Notes under the pieces: model-generated
The model's input: only the letters and a program-made list of their open reading frames with translations
The model's database searches: none
What the model was told of the DNA's origin: nothing
Part shown: positions 1,856-58,820 of the stretch, piece by piece
Position numbering within the stretch: position 1 is the first letter of the stretch
How the letters are laid out: every line of letters begins with the position of its first letter
Assembly: GCA_020052415.1 (NCBI GenBank)
Contig: JAGVPB010000091.1
Coordinates: 1 to 64,000, forward strand
Origin: Bacteroidales bacterium
GTDB taxonomy: Bacteria > Bacteroidota > Bacteroidia > Bacteroidales > JAADJA01
Direction: 5' to 3'
DNA length: 64,000 bases
Position numbers and translations under genes: made by a program

Positions 1856-2057
1856 ACTGATAGTGTTCGCTGGAATTATAAAATGACAAGATATAAATAT
1901 ACATTCTTCCTCAGAAATAATGAAAAATAAAAAACACAAAATAAAAAACGCTTAAGTGCTGAAATGCACTGGACAAAACTTTTACATTGTTCATTGATTA
2001 TTATGTGTTATTCATTCTTGATATTTCGAAAGGGAAAAATTTTCCTTACCATAAATA
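1856..2057. other. Spacer downstream of the HD gene
   Basis: AT-rich spacer between the HD gene stop and the terminator end of the minus-strand structured RNA. No gene and no clear terminator for the HD gene are seen. Confidence 0.4.
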
Positions 2058-2594
2058 TAAAAAACCAGGCGGGAATCCCGTCTGGCCGACAAGATTCCCG
2101 CCCACTAAGCCATCACCGTAGTGATTGATTCGTGCCAGGTTACGGTTATTGTGGCGTGCTCATTACAGTTTTCACCTTGCGGATCTGCCTTATTTGAGTT
2201 GAGTTTAGTCAGAGTTAACCGTTGCCGGTATTCCCTGATTCAACCGTAACTTTTCACGTTCCCTGTGAATTGATTTCCGTGCGGATTTCGCTTCGCAGTT
2301 CGAACCCGGTCAGTTAAACCTTGCGGCTTAAGTTTTCCGAATTCCCGGCCTTCTCAAGCTGTCGTGCTCATGCCTGGTTCCTAAAAACCTTACATCTGCC
2401 GTGCTTAATCTTAGGAATAGCTTTCTTGCGATCACTTTTCCAAGAACCACCTGATTTTAAGGCTGAATTATATCGGGCCGACAACCTAATGCCCGTCCCT
2501 CAATGAATTCCGGATAACGTTGCTGTTTACTGTTTCCAATATTTAGCTTTTTTACCCCTGACGATCCAAGCCTGCCTTTTATCCCTTGCCTGGT
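2058..2594 (-). ncRNA. Putative large structured non-coding RNA, about 535 nt
   Basis: The minus strand has a Bacteroidota promoter just upstream (TTG 2630-2628, 21 nt, TACTTTTG 2606-2599), so transcription should start near 2594. It has an intrinsic terminator at its end. Hairpins seen on the minus strand are CGGGC 2495-2491 with GCCCG 2478-2474 inside GAATT 2510-2506 with AATTC 2469-2465; CTTGAG 2358-2353 with CTTAAG 2332-2327; TTCAC 2269-2265 with GTGAA 2257-2253; and ATCAC 2125-2121 with GTGAT 2116-2112, closed by a UACG tetraloop. The 5' end ACCAGGC (2594-2588) is complementary to GCCTGGT (2070-2064) at the 3' end, as in closed structured RNAs. GGCAGAT followed by a purine-rich AAGG occurs twice (from 2400 and from 2189). 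No credible ORF occurs on either strand. RNase P RNA is elsewhere (12.6 kb) and tmRNA hallmarks (GGGGCTG start, tag ending ALAA) are absent. Class unknown. Confidence 0.7.
2059..2102 (-). terminator. Intrinsic terminator of the structured RNA
   Basis: On the minus strand GGCGGGAATC (2102-2093) pairs perfectly over 10 bp with GATTCCCGCC (2077-2068), with a small inner GTC/GAC helix, and is followed by TGGTTTTTT. This is a strong rho-independent terminator with no adjacent protein gene to serve except the RNA itself. Confidence 0.8.
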
Positions 2595-2598
2595 GAAA

Positions 2599-2630
2599 CA
2601 AAAGTAGTTTAATCATATTACCGAAGTCAA
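2599..2630 (-). promoter_or_regulatory. Promoter of the structured RNA (Bacteroidota -33/-7)
   Basis: On the minus strand TTG at 2630-2628 is followed after 21 nt by TACTTTTG at 2606-2599, a perfect TAnnTTTG -7 element. The predicted start falls about 5 nt downstream, exactly where the sequence complementary to the RNA's 3' end begins. Confidence 0.7.
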
Positions 2631-2722
2631 GTTTTTAAACCTTTAGATATTCACAGGTTTTACACACGAGTTATTAACAATTGTTTATAAAGTTGATCAG
2701 GAAATATACCGATTAAAATAGA

Positions 2723-5122
2723 TTATTTTTTTACAGACTGCAGAATTTCTATATCTTTCGAAACAGACCTGCCCGACTCATCAATTACTGTTACCCGGTG
2801 TTTACCGAATGAAGGCTGAACTGATATTTGATGAATACCGCCGGTCATTCCGATAAATTCATTGTCAATATGCCAGTATATTGTTGAATTTGAATTTCGA
2901 TGTGCTACTTCCAAAATAATTGATCCTAATGTTCCATCAAGATCGACTGGTAGGTATAATCTATTATTCTCACCCGGATAAATAAACTCCATTGGATTAA
3001 CTGAACTTCCGGTTCCGCATCCGGCATAAAGGGGCGGGAGGCTCAGGTATAATGGATTACCCCTTTTATAAAACCATTCCATAACCGGTGGTAAAATAAA
3101 CCATGACTGATGGGTCATCTCCAAAGGGTCGTAACAATCATCAGTAACTCTGAATTGCCTTGTCTTATCGAGATGAATCAAATGATGATACGGGCAGGGC
3201 GGAGTTTTTATTCCGGAAACCGGAATCCAAACCGTATCAACAGTTTCACAATACTGGTTTACTCTGTGTCCGCTTTGCCGGCAGACGGCAATTCTGGTCA
3301 TGTGGTCATAAGGGGGTTCGAACCAGGAAGTTTCCGGCAAAACATTAAATATATCGAATAGAATTGGTGCTGCCGCGGAAATACCAGTGATTCCGCTCCT
3401 TCCCTCTCCATCGGCATTTCCAACCCAGACAGCTACAATGAATTCAGGTGTGGTTCCCAAAGCCCATGCATCCCTGAAACCAAAACTGGTCCCGGTTTTC
3501 CAGGCAATTTTATTTGAGGATGAATAAGTTCTCCATCCCGTATAATCCTGCGGCCTCGAAACTTCAATCATTGCCTTAAAAGTGAACCAGACCGAAGCTG
3601 TACTGATAATTCCGTGTTTTTCTAATGATTTTTTTTTATGTGCGGAATCATCTGACTCTTGCTTTTTATTTACATAAACCGCCTGATGCCAGTCTTCCAG
3701 ATCGTACAAACCGCTGTTGCCTGCGAAATGATTCAAGGTCCTGGTCAATCCTGAATAGGCTGTAACCAAATCCCAGAGTGTGGTCTCTGCACCTCCTAGA
3801 ATCAGGGATAAACCATAGTGATCGGGTGGCTTTGTTAGTGTTGTAAATCCACAATCAATCAGCTTATCGTAGAAATGCTGGACACCAAATTGCTGAAGCA
3901 TCCTGACCGCCGGAACATTCAATGACCGGTAAAGTGCCTTACCTGCCGGAACCGCCCCTGAAAATGTCCGGTCAAAATTATTGGGAGTCAACCCGGTAAA
4001 CTGAGTCGGAATATCAGGAATAAGTGTATTTGGGAGAATTTCACACGCATTCAGCATTGCTGAATATAAGAGAGGTTTCAGAATGCTACCTGAACTGCGG
4101 GATGCAATTATAATATCAACATCATTTCCGTGGGAGGTTTCACCAGATTTTTTCGTATTGCCGACATAAGCCAGAACATTACCGGTTTCAACTTCAATGA
4201 CAATCGCTGCTGCATTATGAATTTCGTTAAATTTCAATTCCTGGTGATGAATTTCAACAATCTCAGAAATGGTTTTCTGGAGATTATAGTCAATGGTTGT
4301 TTTAACCCGCCGACCCGGCATTTCCTTACAAATCCTTTCTAACAGATGAGGTGCGGGTTGCTCAAGTGGAAGGGGTTTCCCAGGCAAATCTTCCATTTTT
4401 GCAAGACTACTGCTAACAGGATCAATAATTCCCTTTCCCGACAACCTGTCAATTAAGTGATTTCTCTTGACAACAAGTTTTTCCTGATTCTTACCCGGGT
4501 ATATTAATGAAGGTGCATTGGGCAATACTGCCAGCGTTGCTGCTTCCGCCCAGGAAAGCTCATCGGGTGGCCGGCCATAATAACGCCATGATGCAGCATC
4601 CAGTCCCACCACATTTCCTCCGAAAGGTGCATTGGCAGCGTAAAGTGCAAGGATGGTGCTTTTTGAGTATTTGATTTCAAGCCGGGTAGCAAGTACCATT
4701 TCAATCATTTTTTCAAATATGGTCCTTGGTTTGCCTTTGCGGGAAAGTCTTATCACCTGCATGGTAAGGGTACTTCCTCCTCTGACAATTTCCCCGGATT
4801 TAATATTCGTAATGGCAGCCCTGAATAAAGACACCAGGTTTACACCGGGATGATAAAAAAAATATCGGTCTTCAAATTGCAAAATAGCATCTTTGAATTT
4901 TCCCGGAACATGATCATTGTAAGGGAATCGCCATTGTCCGTCAGTAGCTATTTTTGCACCGATCAGCACTCCATCCTTATCCTCTATGACGGTACTGGCA
5001 GGATCAGTGAACAGCCTCTCAGGCAAACAGAAAATATATTCAATAACTAAAATCAGAGAGAGTAGCAGTACCGTTATTTTTAGCATCCTTCTGAATTTTA
5101 TCTTACCTGAACCAATAGCCAT
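2723..5122 (-). CDS. pbpC: Penicillin-binding protein 1C
   Basis: Bifunctional class A PBP, 799 residues, anchored by one N-terminal membrane helix (about 12-32) and acting on peptidoglycan in the periplasm. The GT51 glycosyltransferase domain spans roughly 45-230, with catalytic E84 in EDRYFFYHPG and the RGGSTLTMQ motif at 114-122. The transpeptidase domain shows SxxK at S346/K349, SLN at 400-402 and KTGT from 542. The PBP1C-type C-terminal domain follows after about residue 700. It lies 64 nt downstream of the alpha-2-macroglobulin gene on the same strand, a pairing conserved in many bacteria where the macroglobulin is thought to guard the periplasm when the wall is breached. The two are probably one operon. 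A structured RNA with its own promoter follows. Confidence 0.95.
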   Translation of the reverse strand: MAIGSGKIKFRRMLKITVLLLSLILVIEYIFCLPERLFTDPASTVIEDKDGVLIGAKIATDGQWRFPYNDHVPGKFKDAILQFEDRYFFYHPGVNLVSLFRAAITNIKSGEIVRGGSTLTMQVIRLSRKGKPRTIFEKMIEMVLATRLEIKYSKSTILALYAANAPFGGNVVGLDAASWRYYGRPPDELSWAEAATLAVLPNAPSLIYPGKNQEKLVVKRNHLIDRLSGKGIIDPVSSSLAKMEDLPGKPLPLEQPAPHLLERICKEMPGRRVKTTIDYNLQKTISEIVEIHHQELKFNEIHNAAAIVIEVETGNVLAYVGNTKKSGETSHGNDVDIIIASRSSGSILKPLLYSAMLNACEILPNTLIPDIPTQFTGLTPNNFDRTFSGAVPAGKALYRSLNVPAVRMLQQFGVQHFYDKLIDCGFTTLTKPPDHYGLSLILGGAETTLWDLVTAYSGLTRTLNHFAGNSGLYDLEDWHQAVYVNKKQESDDSAHKKKSLEKHGIISTASVWFTFKAMIEVSRPQDYTGWRTYSSSNKIAWKTGTSFGFRDAWALGTTPEFIVAVWVGNADGEGRSGITGISAAAPILFDIFNVLPETSWFEPPYDHMTRIAVCRQSGHRVNQYCETVDTVWIPVSGIKTPPCPYHHLIHLDKTRQFRVTDDCYDPLEMTHQSWFILPPVMEWFYKRGNPLYLSLPPLYAGCGTGSSVNPMEFIYPGENNRLYLPVDLDGTLGSIILEVAHRNSNSTIYWHIDNEFIGMTGGIHQISVQPSFGKHRVTVIDESGRSVSKDIEILQSVKK

Positions 5123-12572: not shown

Positions 12573-12630
12573 TATCCAAGGATTTAGGCAAAAATAAGTA
12601 TTATTTAGTAATTTTGCCGGCCTGTATCAG

Positions 12631-12987
12631 TAGCCTGTCCTATCGCTTTTTTTCGCCACAAGCGGAGAGAGGAGGAAAGTCGGGACAACACAGGGCGCCG
12701 TACTTCCTAACGGGAAGGTTCCGTCAACTGACGGAAACAGAGAGTGCCACAGAAAATAACCGTCCCGCCGTCGGCGGGATAAGGGTGAAAATGTGAGGTA
12801 AGAGCTCACGTCGCGGTATGGCGACATACCGGGAGGGTAAACCTTACGGGTTGAAAGGCCAAATATACCAGGGCTTGAGGGCTGCCCGCCCGATCCTGAG
12901 GGGTTGGCCGTTAGAATCCCGCAGTGATGCGGGAACCAGAGAAATGATAGGACACGACAGAATCCCGCTTACAGGGCTGCTGGTACT
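12631..12987 (+). ncRNA. rnpB: RNase P RNA (bacterial type A)
   Basis: Catalytic RNA that matures tRNA 5' ends. Signature segments are GGAGGAAAGTCGGGACA near 12668, GTGCCACAGAAAATAACCG near 12743, GGTGAAAATGTGAGGTAAGAG near 12783, GGTAAACC near 12834, and the 3' ACGACAGAATCCCGCTTACAG near 12956. The terminal helices can be drawn: CCTATC (5') with GATAGG (3'), and AGCCTG near 12633 with CAGGGCT near 12973. A T-run at 12987-12996 ends the gene. Short ORFs overlapping it are not genes. A -7-like TAATTTTG (12610-12617) lies just upstream. Confidence 0.95.
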
Positions 12988-50669: not shown

Positions 50670-53600
50670 TTGGCTACTACCAATGAATATAACCGTATAG
50701 ATTTCGGTTCGACAAAAATAAAATTTCCGTACCCGGATTTTCTGGATATTCAGCTTAAATCATTTCAGGATTTTTTCCAGCTTGAGACAAATCCCGAAAA
50801 CAGGGCCGGGGAAGGCTTATACAAAGTTTTCAGTGAAAATTTCCCGATCACTGATGCCAGGAATAATTTTATACTTGAATTCCTGGATTATTTTATTGAT
50901 CCTCCAAGATATTCAATAGACGAATGTATTGACAGAGGACTTTCGTACAGCGTACCGTTAAAAGCAAAATTAAAGCTGTACTGTACCGATCCTGAACACG
51001 AAGATTTTGAAACCATTATCCAGGATGTTTATCTTGGGATGATTCCTTATATGACACCCAAAGGAACCTTTATTATTAATGGTGCTGAACGCGTTGTGGT
51101 TTCCCAGTTGCACAGATCGCCGGGAGTGTTTTTCGGTCAACACATGCATGCTAACGGAACTACTTTGTATTCGGCCAGAATCATACCATTCAAAGGATCA
51201 TGGATGGAGTTCACAACCGACATAAATAATGTGATGTATGCTTACATTGACAGGAAGAAAAAACTTCCGGTCACAACATTATTAAGAGCAATCGGGTACG
51301 AAAGCGACAGGGATATTCTTGAGATATTCAACCTTGCTGAAGAAATAAAAGTCAGCAAGAGCGGACTTAAGAAAGTAATTGGCAGAAGATTGGCCGCCAG
51401 GGTTGTACGAACATGGATTGAAGATTTTGTGGATGAGGATACCGGTGAGGTGGTTTCCATCGAAAGGACAGAGGTTATCATTGACCGGGAAACACTTTTG
51501 GAAAATCAGCATATTGATGAAATTGTTGATTCAGGTGTAAAATCAATTTTATTGCACAGGGATGAATCTACAGCCACTGATTATTCCATTATCTTTAATA
51601 CCTTACAAAAAGATACGGCGAACTCAGAAAAAGAAGCTGTGGAGTTCATTTATCGTCAGTTGCGCAATGCAGAACCACCCGACGAGGAAACAGCCCGCGG
51701 AATTATTGACAAATTATTTTTCTCAGACAAACGATATGATTTGGGTGATGTTGGCCGTTACAGAATCAATAAAAAATTAGGGCTGCAGGTTGATCCGGAA
51801 ATAAAGGTACTCACAAAGGAAGATATCATCATCATCATCAAATATCTGATTGAATTAGTTAATTCAAAAACCGATGTTGATGATATTGATCACTTAAGCA
51901 ACAGGAGAGTTAGGACCGTAGGTGAACAACTTTACTCACAGTTTGGAGTTGGCCTTGCACGTATGGCAAGAACCATCCGCGAGAGGATGAATGTCAGAGA
52001 TAATGAAGTATTTACACCTACCGACCTGATCAATGCTAAAACCTTATCATCGGTCATCAATTCATTTTTTGGTACAAATCAATTGTCACAATTTATGGAT
52101 CAGACCAATCCGCTGTCGGAAATTACGCATAAAAGAAGGATTTCGGCATTAGGACCAGGCGGATTATCAAGAGAAAGGGCGGGTTTTGAAGTGAGGGATG
52201 TACATTATACACATTACGGAAGGCTATGTACGATTGAAACACCTGAAGGTCCCAATATCGGCCTAATATCTTCACTTTGTGTTTATGCTACCATCAACCG
52301 GCTGGGATTTATTGAAACTCCGTATAAACCTGTTATTGAAGGAAAAGTAAACCTTGCTGAGCCTCCCATTTACCTTAGCGCTGAAGAAGAAGAAGACAAG
52401 ATCATCGCTCAGGCAAGCACAATGCTACTGGAGGATGGCACCTTTGCTGAAGACAGAATAAAAGTGAGGTATCATGCAGATTATCCCATTACCCCCAAGG
52501 AAAAGGTTGATCTTATTGATATTGCACCTAACCAGATAGCTTCAATAGCTGCTTCACTGATCCCATTCCTGGAGCATGATGATGCCAACAGGGCACTGAT
52601 GGGTTCAAACATGATGCGACAGGCAGTTCCTTTGTTAAATTCTGACAGTCCGATTGTCGGAACCGGGATCGAGGGTAATGTTGCCAAGGATTCCAGAGTA
52701 CTGATAAATTCAGAAGGTAACGGTGTGGTGGAATATGTTGACGCTGATGAAATCAGGATAAGATATGATCGTCAGGATGAAGAGAAATTGGTTAGCTTCG
52801 AGGAGGATCTGCGAATATATCAGTTGACAAAATTCAAAAGGACGAACCAAAATACTTCGGTCAATCTCCGTCCAATCGTTCGGAAAGGCGATAAGGTTAA
52901 AAAAGGACAGGTGCTCTGCGAAGGTTACGCAACTAAAAATGGCGAGCTTGCACTTGGAAGGAACCTGATGGTAGCTTTTATGCCCTGGAAGGGTTATAAC
53001 TTTGAAGATGCAATTGTAGTATCGGAGAGGGTTGTAAAGGAAGATGTTTTTACTTCCGTACACATCGAGGAATTTACCCTTGAAGTCCGGGATACAAAAA
53101 GAGGTATTGAAGAGCTTACGGCTGATATTCCAAACATCAGTTCCGAAGCGACAAAAGATCTGGACGATAATGGAATAATCCGTATCGGAGCCGAAGTGAA
53201 TGAAGGGGATATCCTGATAGGAAAGATTACACCAAAAGGTGAATCCGATCCGACACCTGAAGAAAAATTATTAAGGGCAATCTTTGGGGATAAAGCAGGC
53301 GATGTTAAAGATGCCTCTCTTAAAGCACCACCTTCTATGAAGGGCGTTGTTATTGATAAAAAACTTTTTTCCCGTGCAATTAAAGACAGAAAAGCTAAAA
53401 GCAAGGAAAAAGATATTATTAAAATCCTTGATAACGAATACAATAAAAATTCGGAAGAACTTAAAACTAAATTAGTTGATAAGCTGAATATCATTGTAAA
53501 CGGGAAAACTTCTCAGGGTGTTTATAATAAATTTAAGGAAGAGATCATCCCTAAAAAGGCCAAGTTCACACAGAAGATGCTCCAGGGTATTGATTACCTC

Positions 53601-54482
53601 AATGTTAATCCGGGTAAATGGACGACAGATAAGGATAAAAATGAACTGATCAAGGAACTGGTCAATAATTACACCATAAAGTACAAGGAAATACTTGGAG
53701 TTTATAACCGTAAAAAGTTTGTTGCAAGCGTCGGTGATGATTTGCCGAATGGGATAGTACAAATGGCTAAAGTATTTATAGCAAAAAAAAGGAAACTGAC
53801 AGTCGGGGATAAAATGGCCGGTCGTCACGGAAATAAAGGTATCGTTGCTAAAATTGTTCGTGAAGAAGACATGCCGTTTCTCGAAGATGGCACTCCGGTA
53901 GATATTGTTTTAAATCCGCTGGGAGTTCCGTCACGTATGAACCTTGGACAGATCTATGAAACCATTCTGGGTTGGGCCGGTCATAAATTGGGATTAAGAT
54001 TTTCTTCACCTATTTTTGACGGAGCCACTACGCAGGAGATCAATGATTATTTGAAAAAAGCAGGTTTGCCTGAAAATGGCACTGTATATCTTTACGACGG
54101 TGGTACGGGTGAACGATTCGACCAACCCGCAACAGTCGGATTTATATATATGCTTAAGCTTCATCACATGGTTGATGACAAGATGCATGCTCGCTCGATA
54201 GGGCCGTATTCACTTATTACACAACAGCCACTTGGAGGTAAAGCACAATTCGGAGGCCAGCGATTTGGCGAAATGGAAGTCTGGGCACTGGAAGCATTTG
54301 GAGCAGCAAGTGTTCTGCAGGAAGTACTTACAGTCAAATCGGATGACGTTATTGGCCGTGCTAAAGCATACGAATCAATTGTAAAAGGCGAAAATATGCC
54401 TAAACCTAACGTTCCTGAATCATTCAATGTATTGGTTCATGAACTGAGAGGACTTGGATTGAATATTACTTTCGATAAGTAA
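50670..54482 (+). CDS. rpoB: DNA-directed RNA polymerase subunit beta
   Basis: A 1270-residue catalytic subunit. Recognisable regions are [25 protein letters not shown] (rifampicin pocket), the [17 protein letters not shown] fork loop, [30 protein letters not shown] and the C-terminal [18 protein letters not shown]. The start is TTG (50670), giving [13 protein letters not shown]; no in-frame ATG occurs upstream or in the first hundred codons, and this opening resembles Bacteroidota RpoB. The residues normally mutated in rifampicin resistance look wild type ([16 protein letters not shown]). It is followed 57 nt later by rpoC. Confidence 0.98.
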
Positions 54483-54539
54483 TAATTAAATCACTACATT
54501 TTATTATTTACCATTCAACTGATATAACATAATTATAAA

Positions 54540-57500
54540 ATGGGATTCAGAAAAGAAGAAAAAATTCCCGGTGATTTTTCAAAGATCACTATAAGTTTGG
54601 CTTCCCCTGAAATGATCCTTGAAAGGTCACATGGAGAAGTAACCAAACCAGAAACCATCAACTACAGGACATATAAACCTGAACGTGACGGATTGTTCTG
54701 CGAAAGGATTTTCGGTCCGGTAAAGGATTGGGAATGTCATTGCGGAAAATATAAAAGGATCAGGTACAAGGGTATTGTTTGCGACCGTTGTGGTGTTGAA
54801 GTTACTGAAAAGAAAGTAAGAAGGGAAAGAATGGGCCATATACAACTGGTGGTGCCGGTTGCACACATCTGGTTTTTCAGGTCGTTGCCAAATAAAATAG
54901 GCGCTCTTCTGGGACTTCAGACAAAAAAACTCGATACTGTTATATATTACGAACGTTATGTTGTAATAAATCCTGGTATAAAAAGTAAAGATGGTATTAA
55001 TTACCTTGATTTTCTGACAGAGGAAGAATACTTCAACATCATCGAAAACCTTCCTGCTGATAATCAGTACCTCGATGACAGTGATCCGCAGAAGTTCATT
55101 GCAAAAATGGGCGCCGAAGCCATTCATGATCTTTTGGCACGACTTGACTTGGACAAGGAATCTTTCGATCTGCGTCACCAGGCCAACACTGAAACCTCAC
55201 AGCAAAGAAAACAGGAAGCTTTAAAAAGACTACAGGTATTTGAGGCATTCCGCGACGGGCAAACAAGGATAGAAAACAGGCCGGAATGGATGATCGTAAA
55301 AGTCGTCCCGATTATACCGCCTGAGCTCAGGCCGCTTGTGCCATTGGATGGCGGCAGATTTGCGACTTCCGACCTGAACGACTTGTACAGGAGAGTGATC
55401 ATCCGCAACAACCGTTTGAAAAGGCTTATTGAGATAAAAGCTCCCGATGTCATCATGCGTAATGAAAAGCGAATGTTACAGGAAGCTGTTGATTCATTAT
55501 TTGATAATTCAAGGAAATCAAATGCCGTTAAGACAGAATCCAACCGTGCATTAAAATCCTTAAGTGACAGCCTGAAAGGAAAACAGGGACGTTTTCGTCA
55601 GAACCTGTTAGGAAAGAGGGTGGATTATTCAGGAAGGTCCGTTATCGTTGTCGGACCGGAGCTAAAGCTTAATGAATGCGGAATTCCCAAGGAAATGGCT
55701 TCAGAACTTTTCAAGCCTTTTATAATTCGAAAAATGCTTGAAAGAGGGATTGTAAAGACAGTTAAATCGGCAAAGAAGATCGTTGACAGAAAGGACCCGG
55801 TAGTATGGGATATCCTTGAGAATATTTTAAAGGGACATCCGGTCATGCTGAACCGTGCCCCTACCCTGCACCGTTTAGGTATCCAGGCATTCCAGCCAAA
55901 GTTGGTTGAAGGTAAAGCAATTCAGCTTCATCCTTTGGTTTGTACAGCTTTTAATGCCGACTTTGATGGTGACCAGATGGCTGTTCATGTTCCTCTCGGA
56001 AATGCCGCTATTATTGAAACCCAAATGTTGATGCTTGCTTCGCACAATATCCTTAATCCGGCCAATGGCGCTCCTATTACCGTTCCTTCGCAGGACATGG
56101 TTTTGGGACTTTACTATATGACAAAAGCGAGGAAAAGTGTACCGGGTGAACCCATAAAAGGTGAGGGATTTACTTTCTATGGTCCTGAAGAGGTAATCAT
56201 TGCTTACAATGAGAAAAGGGCAGATCTTCATGCGATTATTAATTGCAGGCTTAAGCTAATAGAGGATGGTGTTTCCGTAACGAAAACCATAGAGACGACA
56301 GTCGGACGGATTCTTTTTAACCAGGTAGTACCTGAAGAAATTGGATTTCTGAATCAGCTAATGACCAAAAAGGCTTTGAGAGATATCATCGGAGACGTTC
56401 TTAAAGTGACCGGAACAGCTAAAACAGCCAAATTTCTTGATGATATAAAGGACCTTGGATTCAGTAAAGCATTCGCCGGGGGACTGTCATTCAACCTCGG
56501 TGATATTGTAATTCCCGAAATAAAAGAAGAACTTATACATCAGGCAAACGGAGAGGTTGAAGAAGTAATGAACAACTACAATATGGGGTTCATCACCAAC
56601 AACGAAAGGTATAATCAGATCATTGATATATGGACACATACCAACTCAAGGCTGACTCAGACGCTGATGTTAAAGTTGACAAATGATAAACAGGGCTTTA
56701 ATCCCATTTACATGATGCTCGATTCAGGAGCTAGGGGATCAAAAGAACAGATTCGTCAGTTGTCGGGAATGAGGGGATTGATGGCCAAGCCGCAGAAGTC
56801 CGGTGCTACAGGCGGAGAAATTATTGAAAACCCAATCCTTTCAAATTTCAAGGAAGGGTTATCGGTTCTTGAATACTTTATTTCAACACATGGCGCCCGT
56901 AAAGGTCTTGCTGATACCGCCTTAAAAACCGCTGATGCCGGTTATCTTACACGGCGTCTTGTTGATGTTGCACAGGATGTGGTCATCGCTGAAAAAGACT
57001 GCGGAACTCTGAGGGGATTACGTACTACATCATTGAAGAAAAATGAAGAAATTGTTGAAACACTATACGACAGGATACTTGGAAGAACTACTCTTCATGA
57101 TATTTATCATCCTCAAACAGGGGCTTTAATTGTTTCGGCCGGAGATGAATTAACTGAAGAAATTTGCCGGATCATTGAAGAATCTCCGATTGAAGAGGTT
57201 GAAATCAGGTCGGTGTTAACATGTGAAGCCAAGCGGGGAGTTTGCTCATTATGCTACGGCCGTAATCTTGCTACAGGACGAATGGTTCAGAGAGGAGAAG
57301 CGGTAGGTGTTATTGCAGCTCAGTCCATTGGAGAGCCGGGTACTCAGCTTACATTGAGAACATTCCACGTTGGAGGTACGGCTTCTAATATTGCCATTTC
57401 CTCAAAAATTGAGGCTAAATACGGTGGCAGGATAGAAATCGAAGAGCTGAGAACGGTTGACTATGTGGATTCAGACAAGAAAAAGTATGAAATTGTTATC

Positions 57501-58820
57501 GGCCGTTCAGCCGAAATGAGAGTGATAGATGAGAATACGGGTATCATTCTGATGTCAGGCAATATCCCTTATGGAGCAAAATTGTATTACAAACACAATG
57601 CAACTTTGAAAAAGGGAGATACCATCGCCGAATGGGATCCATACAATGCAGTGATTTTATCTGAAGTTGGCGGAACTATTAAATACGACAGCATAATCGA
57701 GGGTGTTACCTTCAGGATAGAGTCGGATGAACAGACAGGATATCATGATAAAGTAATCATCGAATCGCGACAGAAACAGAAAAATCCGGTCATAAAGATC
57801 CACGATAAAAATAATGAAGAGATCAAATCATACGATATACCGGTCGGTTCACATATTATTGTCAGTGATAGTGATAAGATCAGGGCAGGAGATATTCTTG
57901 TTAAGATTCCGCGTGCAATTGGAAAATCGGGTGACATCACAGGCGGATTGCCTAGAGTAACCGAGCTTTTCGAAGCGCGTAATCCTTCCGATCCGGCTAA
58001 AGTATCAGAAATTGATGGAGTGGTTTCGTTTGGTAAAAAACTTAAACGTGGGAACCGTGAAGTTATCATTACCTCCAAGACAGGTGAAGAAAAAAGATAT
58101 CTTATTCCTACTTCAAAGCAAATCCTTGCACAGGAAAACGACTACGTTAAAGCCGGTACTCCTTTGTCAGAAGGCGCTATGACACCTTCCGACATACTTG
58201 CCATCAAAGGCCCGATGAAGGTGCAGGAATATATTGTCAATGAAATCCAGGAAGTTTATCGTTTGCAGGGTGTTAAAATCAATGATAAGCATTTTGAAGT
58301 CATTGTCAGGCAAATGATGCGTAAAGTTGAAGTTGACGATCCGGGAGATACTAAATTTCTGGAAGGTGAACTTGCAAACAAAAACGATTTTCAGGATGAA
58401 AATGATGAAATCTTTGGTAAAAAAGTCGTTGTTGATAGTGGCGATTCAGTTGTTTACCGTTCCGGAATGATTGTAAGCGCAAGGAAGATGAGAGAAGAAA
58501 ATTCACAATTAAAAAGGAAGGATAAAGCTTTGATTGAGTCGAGGGATGCCAAACCGGCTACCGCACGCCAGGTGCTGCAGGGAATTACCAAGGCCTCACT
58601 TCAGACATACAGCTGGATTTCGGCTGCTTCATTCCAGGAAACAACGAAAGTTCTTACCCAGGCTGCCATCAATGCAAAAACAGATGATCTGAATGGATTA
58701 AAGGAAAATGTGATCGTCGGTCATTTAATTCCGGCAGGTACAGGGCTCAGGGACTATGAAAACCTGATCGTTGGTTCGAAGGAAGAATATGAAGCATTAA
58801 TGGCGTCTAAAGAAAATTAA
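54540..58820 (+). CDS. rpoC: DNA-directed RNA polymerase subunit beta'
   Basis: A 1426-residue catalytic subunit. The N-terminal zinc ribbon has C66, C68, C81 and C84 (CHCGKY... CDRCG). The catalytic magnesium loop NADFDGD is at 472-478. The bridge and trigger region includes [21 protein letters not shown] second zinc site uses [14 protein letters not shown], and the C-terminal LVHLI-type domain ends with [11 protein letters not shown]. Full length, no insertions out of the ordinary for Bacteroidota. Confidence 0.98.

Follow-up and report, generated by a model that had tools for sequence, protein, structure and literature searches.

The window, by which we mean the whole stretch of 64,000 nucleotides that was analysed (Bacteroidales bacterium, contig JAGVPB010000091.1), carries on its minus strand the gene of a large structured RNA, and this RNA belongs to a family about whose reality there is hardly any doubt. 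As judged from sequence, the RNA class is well supported, its control by DnaA is likely and a function can be proposed. Taken as a whole, it is somewhat probable that the RNA is a stand-alone, trans-acting large non-coding RNA of a family outside Rfam, which would act as a ribonucleoprotein scaffold and whose synthesis would be coupled to DnaA; the scaffold function, considered by itself, is possible but doubtful. An earlier note on this DNA had suggested that a large structured RNA stands here alone, between a promoter and a terminator of its own, and this suggestion passes the sequence tests that the note named. The DnaA-type boxes, a boxA-like motif, the variation in size and the breadth of the family were missed there.

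The signals of the gene show it to be bounded by a predicted promoter of Bacteroidota type and a predicted intrinsic terminator, with the following positions.

2057..2595, minus strand: RNA gene, with a full-length alignment of 11 species from the genus that takes in promoter and terminator, supported by structure and covariation, with both ends conserved beyond the genus; the predicted transcript of about 540 nt runs from CACCAGG (predicted 5' end, near 2595) to the T-run of the terminator
2621..2631, minus strand: -33 element (CTTGAC..), which contains TTG and is conserved in the 11-species alignment
2599..2606, minus strand: -7 box TACTTTTG
2057..2102, minus strand: intrinsic terminator, 14 pairs followed by a T-run (helix 22 of the 11-species consensus structure)

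In the window copy the TTG lies 21 nt upstream of the -7 box, in agreement with the promoter as it had first been read. Among 115 homologues, 108 have a -7 box of the form TAnnTTTG, where TTTG belonged to the search pattern that yielded most of them, and in at least 98 of these 108 a TTG is found 19-21 nt further upstream. The terminator had been described as a 10-bp stem with a T-run; in the 11 species 98.7% of the cells of its stem are paired, and 7 pairs have changed on both sides. The gene is flanked by a penicillin-binding-protein gene at 2723-5122 (Pfam Transgly, BiPBP_C) and an HD-domain gene at 1253-1855. A tRNA-Arg (acg) gene is located at 869-943, 1.1 kb from the 3' end of the RNA gene. 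No open reading frame is kept across the 11 aligned species, in which the longest stop-free stretches shift frame from one species to another, and a coding gene is for this reason rejected, as expected from the original statement that no plausible frame lies inside.

The folding energy of positions 2056-2597 is -172.3 kcal/mol, which corresponds to a z value of -5.0, and none of 100 dinucleotide shuffles folds as well; the heavy folding ascribed to this stretch is thereby borne out. When a consensus structure is placed on the 11-species alignment, 93.7% of its cells are paired and 55 of its 109 pairs have changed on both sides, so that compensatory changes are present; none of 500 shuffles equals the alignment, in a control that does not keep the relatedness of the sequences. 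When the partners are slid by one column, the pairing falls to 43-47%, and this control leans toward the consensus structure, because that alignment also served to derive the structure. From the 5' end to the 3' end, the RNA is organized as follows.

2589..2593, minus strand: 5' strand of P1 (CCAGG), which pairs with 2135-2139 (helix 1) and covaries over the family
2577..2588, minus strand: 5' strand of the core internal loop, CAAGGGAUAAAA (family consensus GUGAGnGAUAAAA), almost without variation in the 47 sequences obtained with the 3' model and not with the 5' motif
2570..2576, minus strand: 5' strand of P2 (GGCA..GC), helix 2 of the consensus structure
2160..2569, minus strand: variable middle domain with many hairpins, several of GNRA type (helices 3-19)
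2153..2159, minus strand: 3' strand of P2, helix 2 of the consensus structure
2140..2152, minus strand: 3' strand of the core internal loop, consensus AYAAUAACnGUA, from alignments of genus and family
2135..2139, minus strand: 3' strand of P1 (CCTGG), partner of 2589-2593
2103..2134, minus strand: conserved hairpin with a UACG loop (CAC..GUG stem; loop hairpin at 2114-2123), helices 20 and 21, two pairs of which exceed every simulation

Covariation was compared with a tree-based null in which the same substitutions are replayed at random sites, our own approximation of R-scape, applied to 101 sequences with 100 simulations. Six pairs lie beyond every one of the simulations. Three of them belong to the terminator stem and two to the UACG hairpin, which is the tetraloop noticed at the outset; the remaining one is in P1 and connects the two ends of the RNA. 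By this approximated measure the RNA has the covariation beyond phylogeny by which a structured non-coding RNA class is recognized. The P1 pair in question (7-60) is long-range and is AU in 55 sequences, GC in 42, GU in three and unpaired in one. Another P1 pair is UG in 20 of the 101 sequences. The other P1 pair tested and the P2 pairs are well paired but not significant against the null (E values of 3.4, 2.5 and 21); the P2 pairs 22-44 and 23-43 are formed in 95 and 96 of the 101 sequences, respectively.

The earlier note had let the 5' ACCAGGC pair with the GCCTGGT just before the T-run. This pairing is wrong: the GCCTGGT is a part of the terminator region that is not kept (GCTGTG stands there in four of the 11 species), and the true, covarying partner is the CCTGG at 2135-2139. 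In the 11-species alignment 100% of the P1 cells are paired, with one pair being GC in six species and AU in five. Over the family, P1 is formed by [A]YCARGY at the 5' end and RYYUGRC in the 3' segment, as can be seen in 47 sequences that were found without use of the 5' motif. These are what remains of 58 loci when L277-L280 (no 5' motif) and L257 and L260 (genomes already represented) are taken away, leaving 52, and when a further five, in which a motif was not located by the script, are dropped. Here, P1 pair 1 is CG in 21, UA in 19 and UG in seven sequences, and pair 4 is AU in 29, GC in 15 and GU in three, so that both are paired in all 47; three more pairs are standard in every sequence, whereas a sixth is standard in 38 of the 47 only. 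Enclosed between P1 and P2 is the near-invariant two-strand internal loop GAGnGAUAAAA / AYAAUAACnGUA, and the middle domain beyond P2 differs between families in both length and content.

The distribution of the RNA was followed with searches that address its two ends separately. At the DNA level, 13 of 60 relatives searched gave a match, and 12 of these, including the genome of the window itself, belong to the genus; a 36-bp match in G018 from this search was not supported by model R1, a covariance model that was built from genus sequences and covers the 3' domain alone. R1 matches 11 of 17 genomes of the genus, and five of the six with a completeness of 90% or more and a contamination of 5% or less. 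In the order it matches 53 of 247 genomes, 47 of which have the 5' motif upstream as well. Not counted among these 47 are G180, G210, G166, G222 and G175, where there is no 5' motif, and G172, which ends at a contig edge; four that are counted are weak, namely G042, G236 and G247, with the 5' motif at two substitutions and a 3' motif that looks poor by an eye-level pattern, and G260 (L030), with the 5' motif at three. The remaining 194 of the 247 sampled genomes gave no R1 match, which means either that the RNA is not universal or that R1 misses many copies. Two matches occur in nine of the 53 matched genomes, two of these cases being antisense overlaps, and most genomes thus have one copy. 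Two copies lie close together in G171 (C1, 208861 and 209345), in G054 and in G087 (C28). At L165, two nearby copies each have a box array upstream.

Model R3, a covariance model from diverse copies, matches 14 of 395 genomes of the phylum, where the clear members with both ends, apart from the genome of the window, are L069, L070, L071 and L079, all from the same class as the window and another order. L075 may be a divergent member, L072, L073 and L076 are ambiguous, and the R3 matches in the phylum other than L069-L073, L075, L076 and L079 look like terminators matched by chance. L072 and L073, from one genus of the same class and another order, are weak R3 matches with TGTGSATAAC boxes upstream, a possible CTAAG/CTTAG pairing of the ends and a CUACGG hairpin, and are possibly far-diverged members.

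A search with the 5'-end pattern, one genome per species, returned at least 118 stretches. Among the matches listed, 77 of 80 titles name Bacteroidota groups, two Chlorobiota and one Delongbacteria. The two Chlorobiota labels are taken as wrong, the contigs having the lengths of contigs of G226 and G011, two genomes that are placed in the order of the window. At L152 the 5' end of the RNA is found on a contig titled Candidatus Delongbacteria, by contamination of the assembled genome or by transfer. The 3' domain is present at 73 of the same 80 listed loci; at the remaining seven the sequence ends 29-433 nt past the start of the motif. Since these 80 were selected with the pattern, their 5' motif is conserved by construction. 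In total, 118 of 120 matches to the 3' domain are accompanied by the 5' motif, but 75 of the 120 lie in loci that were found by this motif, so that only 45 test the linkage. Of these 45, among which are the 11 genus sequences behind R1, 44 are preceded by the 5' motif, in the case of L030 only when three substitutions are allowed. The separate searches for each end converge, and the two ends hence predict each other. The family analyses include 115 of the 118 complete sequences (L023 and L030, with more than one substitution, and L161, with 888 nt, were dropped); 112 of the 115 have enough upstream DNA for a count of boxes, and 101 are left for covariation after removal of near-duplicates.

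Carriers include Draconibacterium (Prolixibacteraceae), Maribellus, Sunxiuqinia and Lentimicrobium and, on the Cytophagales side, Mariniradius (Cyclobacteriaceae), Cecembia, Aquiflexum, Pleomorphovibrio and Rhodonellum. The family thus appears to be one of the Bacteroidota, among them many environmental ones, with lineages of both Bacteroidales and Cytophagales type. Conservation across genera, which had been named as a check, is found in many families and with differing flanking genes.

Upstream of the promoter in the window there are four sites that resemble DnaA boxes, with orientations given relative to the RNA gene and positions in the homologues counted from the A of the 5' motif.

2682..2690, minus strand: DnaA-box-like site TTATAAACA, forward, at about -93 in homologues
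2671..2679, minus strand: DnaA-box-like site TGTTAATAA, reverse, at about -85 in homologues
2658..2666, minus strand: degenerate box TGTGTAAAA, reverse, at about -72 in homologues
2647..2655, minus strand: degenerate box TGTGAATAT, reverse, at about -61 in homologues

When upstream regions of 120 bp are searched on both strands, the relaxed form TTATNMACA occurs at 159 sites in 96 of 112 regions, compared with a mean of 5.0 sites in 4.9 regions after dinucleotide shuffling. The phasing is fixed, with one forward box at about -93 and three reverse boxes at about -85, -72 and -61. The DnaA box consensus of E. coli, TTATNCACA, occurs in exact form at 26 sites in 18 of the 112 regions, compared with 1.6 in shuffles, mostly at loci of Cyclobacteriaceae type and their relatives and also at L094, a locus from a metagenome-assembled genome with three perfect TGTGGATAA boxes and a fourth near-box. 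The exact consensus being present in 18 of 112 regions only, DnaA is inferred for the others, among them the window, whose array has the relaxed form only, with two of four boxes degenerate and the exact E. coli consensus absent. In the DnaA protein encoded by the genome the DNA-binding domain is complete and bears the signature KDHATVLHA; the corresponding signature in E. coli is DHTTVLHA. The upstream boxes are, then, probably DnaA sites through which the RNA gene is regulated.

A second recurring motif is internal to the RNA. Of 115 RNAs, 37 contain the boxA-like GTTCTTT in their middle part, compared with 2.4 in shuffles; in the other 78 it was not found, and the window copy has a near match only, GGUUCUUGG. 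In the same genome GTTCTTTGA stands about 100 nt before the 16S gene, which is the usual place of boxA. For RNA copies that carry GUUCUUU, this suggests an antitermination like that of rRNA.

These elements can be combined in a simple scheme, in which the DnaA and boxA steps rest on sequence patterns and the step of core and arm goes beyond them. The level or state of DnaA would set the transcription of the RNA via the four upstream box-like sites, and the RNA would in this way be coupled to replication initiation. Where GUUCUUU is present, antitermination of the NusB/S10 type, as on rRNA, would protect the untranslated transcript. The RNA would then fold into a closed core, made up of P1, P2 and the invariant loop, which would carry a protein or RNA partner. 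The invariant loop would be the working core and most likely a binding site for protein, the variable arm would be a multivalent scaffold and the RNA as a whole would be the frame of a ribonucleoprotein.

An alternative that is unlikely, though the least so of those considered, is a multivalent sponge of the CsrB type, where repeated hairpin modules titrate an RNA-binding protein and where control by DnaA would make the sponge replication-dependent. RNAs of the CsrB type are sponges with repeated hairpin modules, and some members of the present family have such modules: a module with the motif UGAGACGGGYAACCGCAGAA occurs in three to four copies at three loci (L069-L071, about 620 nt; spacing 102-112 nt in L069), and once, at the same offset of about 97-100, in eight shorter forms with lengths near 300 nt. 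The copy number of this module accounts for part of the variation in size within the family, whose members are mostly 290-630 nt long with extremes of 248 nt (L113) and 888 nt (L161; a value of 142 nt for L030 is an artefact of a misplaced motif). However, the module is recognizable in only 11 of 118 RNAs, mostly as a single copy, and direct repeats of at least 14 nt are absent from the window copy. The highest conservation is in the closed core, which sets the family apart from CsrB, and not in the modules.

Less likely still is a ribozyme or another machine made from RNA only, e.g., a homo-oligomer like OLE, ROOL or GOLLD. The large closed fold, the hairpins of GNRA type and the invariant two-strand internal loop are what such a machine could have, and assemblies of large RNAs without protein are described (PMC12286853). 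Against this, no known catalytic RNA family matches the window RNA or 60 homologous loci in Rfam. Rfam holds models of OLE, GOLLD, ROOL, HEARO and raiA, and none of these matches in the window or at the 60 loci. OLE, ROOL and GOLLD resemble the window RNA in that they are hundreds of nucleotides long with an elaborate, covarying secondary structure, but GOLLD, and similarly ROOL, is encoded by phages and prophages according to PMC12286853, whereas the window RNA is without viral, phage or plasmid match. The raiA-motif RNA (ModT) is likewise structured and conserved in very many species, but in other phyla, with Bacillota named in PMC11706538. OLE, ROOL, GOLLD and raiA are thus closest in kind, and none of them is related to the window RNA by any test that was run.

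It is improbable that the working part of the locus is DNA, i.e., an origin or a titration site like datA or DARS that binds DnaA, with the transcript as an incidental product. The phased array before most copies (96 of 112 regions) is what such a locus would display, and so is the palindrome TTATTAACAATTGTTAATAAC: with at most two mismatches allowed, and with the two strands of a site counted once, it occurs 20 times among 24 genomes, in 14 of them, and 16 of these occurrences precede the RNA. The chromosomal sites datA and DARS are bound by DnaA, and sites of this kind share the cluster of DnaA-type boxes; here, however, the distance between the boxes and the promoter of a structured RNA is constant. 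The promoter and the terminator are both conserved, which indicates RNA, and the pairing of the RNA is conserved with G-U intermediates, such as the UG found at one P1 pair in 20 of 101 sequences; such intermediates in the long-range P1 argue for the RNA as the working part. In the closed chromosome CP070687.1 the RNA is at 1.09 Mb and the skew minimum near 2.06-2.2 Mb, weak evidence in that the skew curve, from 20 sampled stretches, is noisy, and in the window the GC skew changes sign 16-40 kb from the RNA. A replication origin at the RNA was rejected on the same noisy curve, the RNA not being at the skew minimum of CP070687.1.

The same material holds some observations on origins as such. 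In CP070687.1, at about 2146790-2146831 (L237), four boxes of the TTATTAACA type lie near the coarse GC-skew minimum and upstream of an open reading frame, a possible oriC; at 636361 and 916032 of the same chromosome (L238, L239) two stretches that resemble each other lie in inverse orientation and carry two DnaA-type boxes apiece, and one of them adjoins a reading frame that by eye resembles an insertion-sequence gene. In the window, the GC skew goes from mostly negative to positive over 18000-44000, with rpoB and rpoC pointing away at 50670-58820, and a replication origin may be close to this interval.

That the RNA is a divergent housekeeping RNA (RNase P, tmRNA, SRP or 6S) is highly improbable: it resembles RNase P RNA and tmRNA in standing alone and in length, and these have ends that pair with each other, but the genome has its own RNase P RNA at 12627-12987 of the window and a full-length tmRNA on another contig (C55), which refutes both identities; ARAGORN finds no tmRNA in the window, and the early statements that the RNA is not RNase P and lacks tmRNA hallmarks hold. 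The 6S and 6S-Flavo models do not match the window RNA, whose family is mostly 290-630 nt long; 6S RNA is about 110-200 nt. In Rfam 15 (4227 families, a match being a score above the gathering threshold of the family), no family overlaps the RNA in the window or at two times 20 homologous loci. A permissive search gave nothing on the strand of the RNA up to E 10 in the window stretch, where the only match is a Plasmodium RNase P on the opposite strand (E 2.1, far below gathering), and at 20 further loci only RNAI in L265 (E 0.81) and sR10 in L103 (E 0.97), both far below gathering. The 60 homologous loci in these tests overlap in part, and the proposed comparison with Rfam gave no family for any of them.

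Just as improbable is that the RNA serves a neighbouring gene as leader or trailer, or that it is a mobile element. The RNA lies about 130 bp from the penicillin-binding-protein gene and heads away from it in the same direction, but it has a promoter and a terminator of its own, and its neighbours are others in other families. In a census of 105 sites, some of which are the same contig reached twice, ubiD is downstream at 15 sites, and upstream are eno at 12 and rplQ at 11, often along with ubiD; further neighbours are SRAP (9), dnaG facing the RNA (8), biotin carboxylase (6) and a poly(A)-polymerase-like gene (5), with HD (7) and amidohydrolase (6) in the genus of the window and its kin, and RelA/SpoT and ThiF at single sites. 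The commonest neighbour groups thus each account for at most 15 of 105 sites, and a fixed partner gene is rejected. When the neighbours change and the form of the RNA stays constant, the RNA is not the leader of any one of them, and when no gene co-occurs with it consistently, the identity of a protein partner is a guess. Own promoter, own terminator and varied neighbours are together what distinguishes a stand-alone non-coding RNA class. The RNA is mostly present in one copy, and no match was obtained to plasmids or phages by DNA similarity or to viral contigs by the 5' pattern, on which grounds the mobile element is rejected.

The preferred reading is therefore that of a stand-alone RNA of a new class, with the reservation that large structured non-coding RNAs of unknown function already form a known heap. 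No description of it was found in the titles and abstract starts listed from the open literature, and with no match in Rfam 15 the claim that the RNA is undescribed stands within these sources. The 2017 set of candidates has 224 members, and the human-microbiome candidate set from 2021 (PMC8040213) has thousands of supplementary models, among which an unlabelled model of the RNA could be included.

Broadly conserved large structured RNAs of bacteria are, to our knowledge, few. RNase P and tmRNA are large structured RNA classes that are central to the cell. The present RNA is found in dozens of Bacteroidota families, and since cultured genera are among the carriers, with harmless species such as Draconibacterium sediminis, Mariniradius saccharolyticus and Cecembia lonarensis, it can be tested. 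A covariance model with both ends would let annotators label a gene that is outside the coverage of Rfam 15. The box array gives the first concrete hypothesis for the RNA, namely a coupling to replication initiation. Our tentative view, which we put below an even chance, is that Bacteroidota have here a new RNA class under direct control of DnaA, which would link replication initiation to another process of the cell via a ribonucleoprotein formed on the invariant core that closes the ends. If this is true, the DnaA circuit would gain its first known large structured RNA, as far as titles and abstracts of the DnaA literature show.
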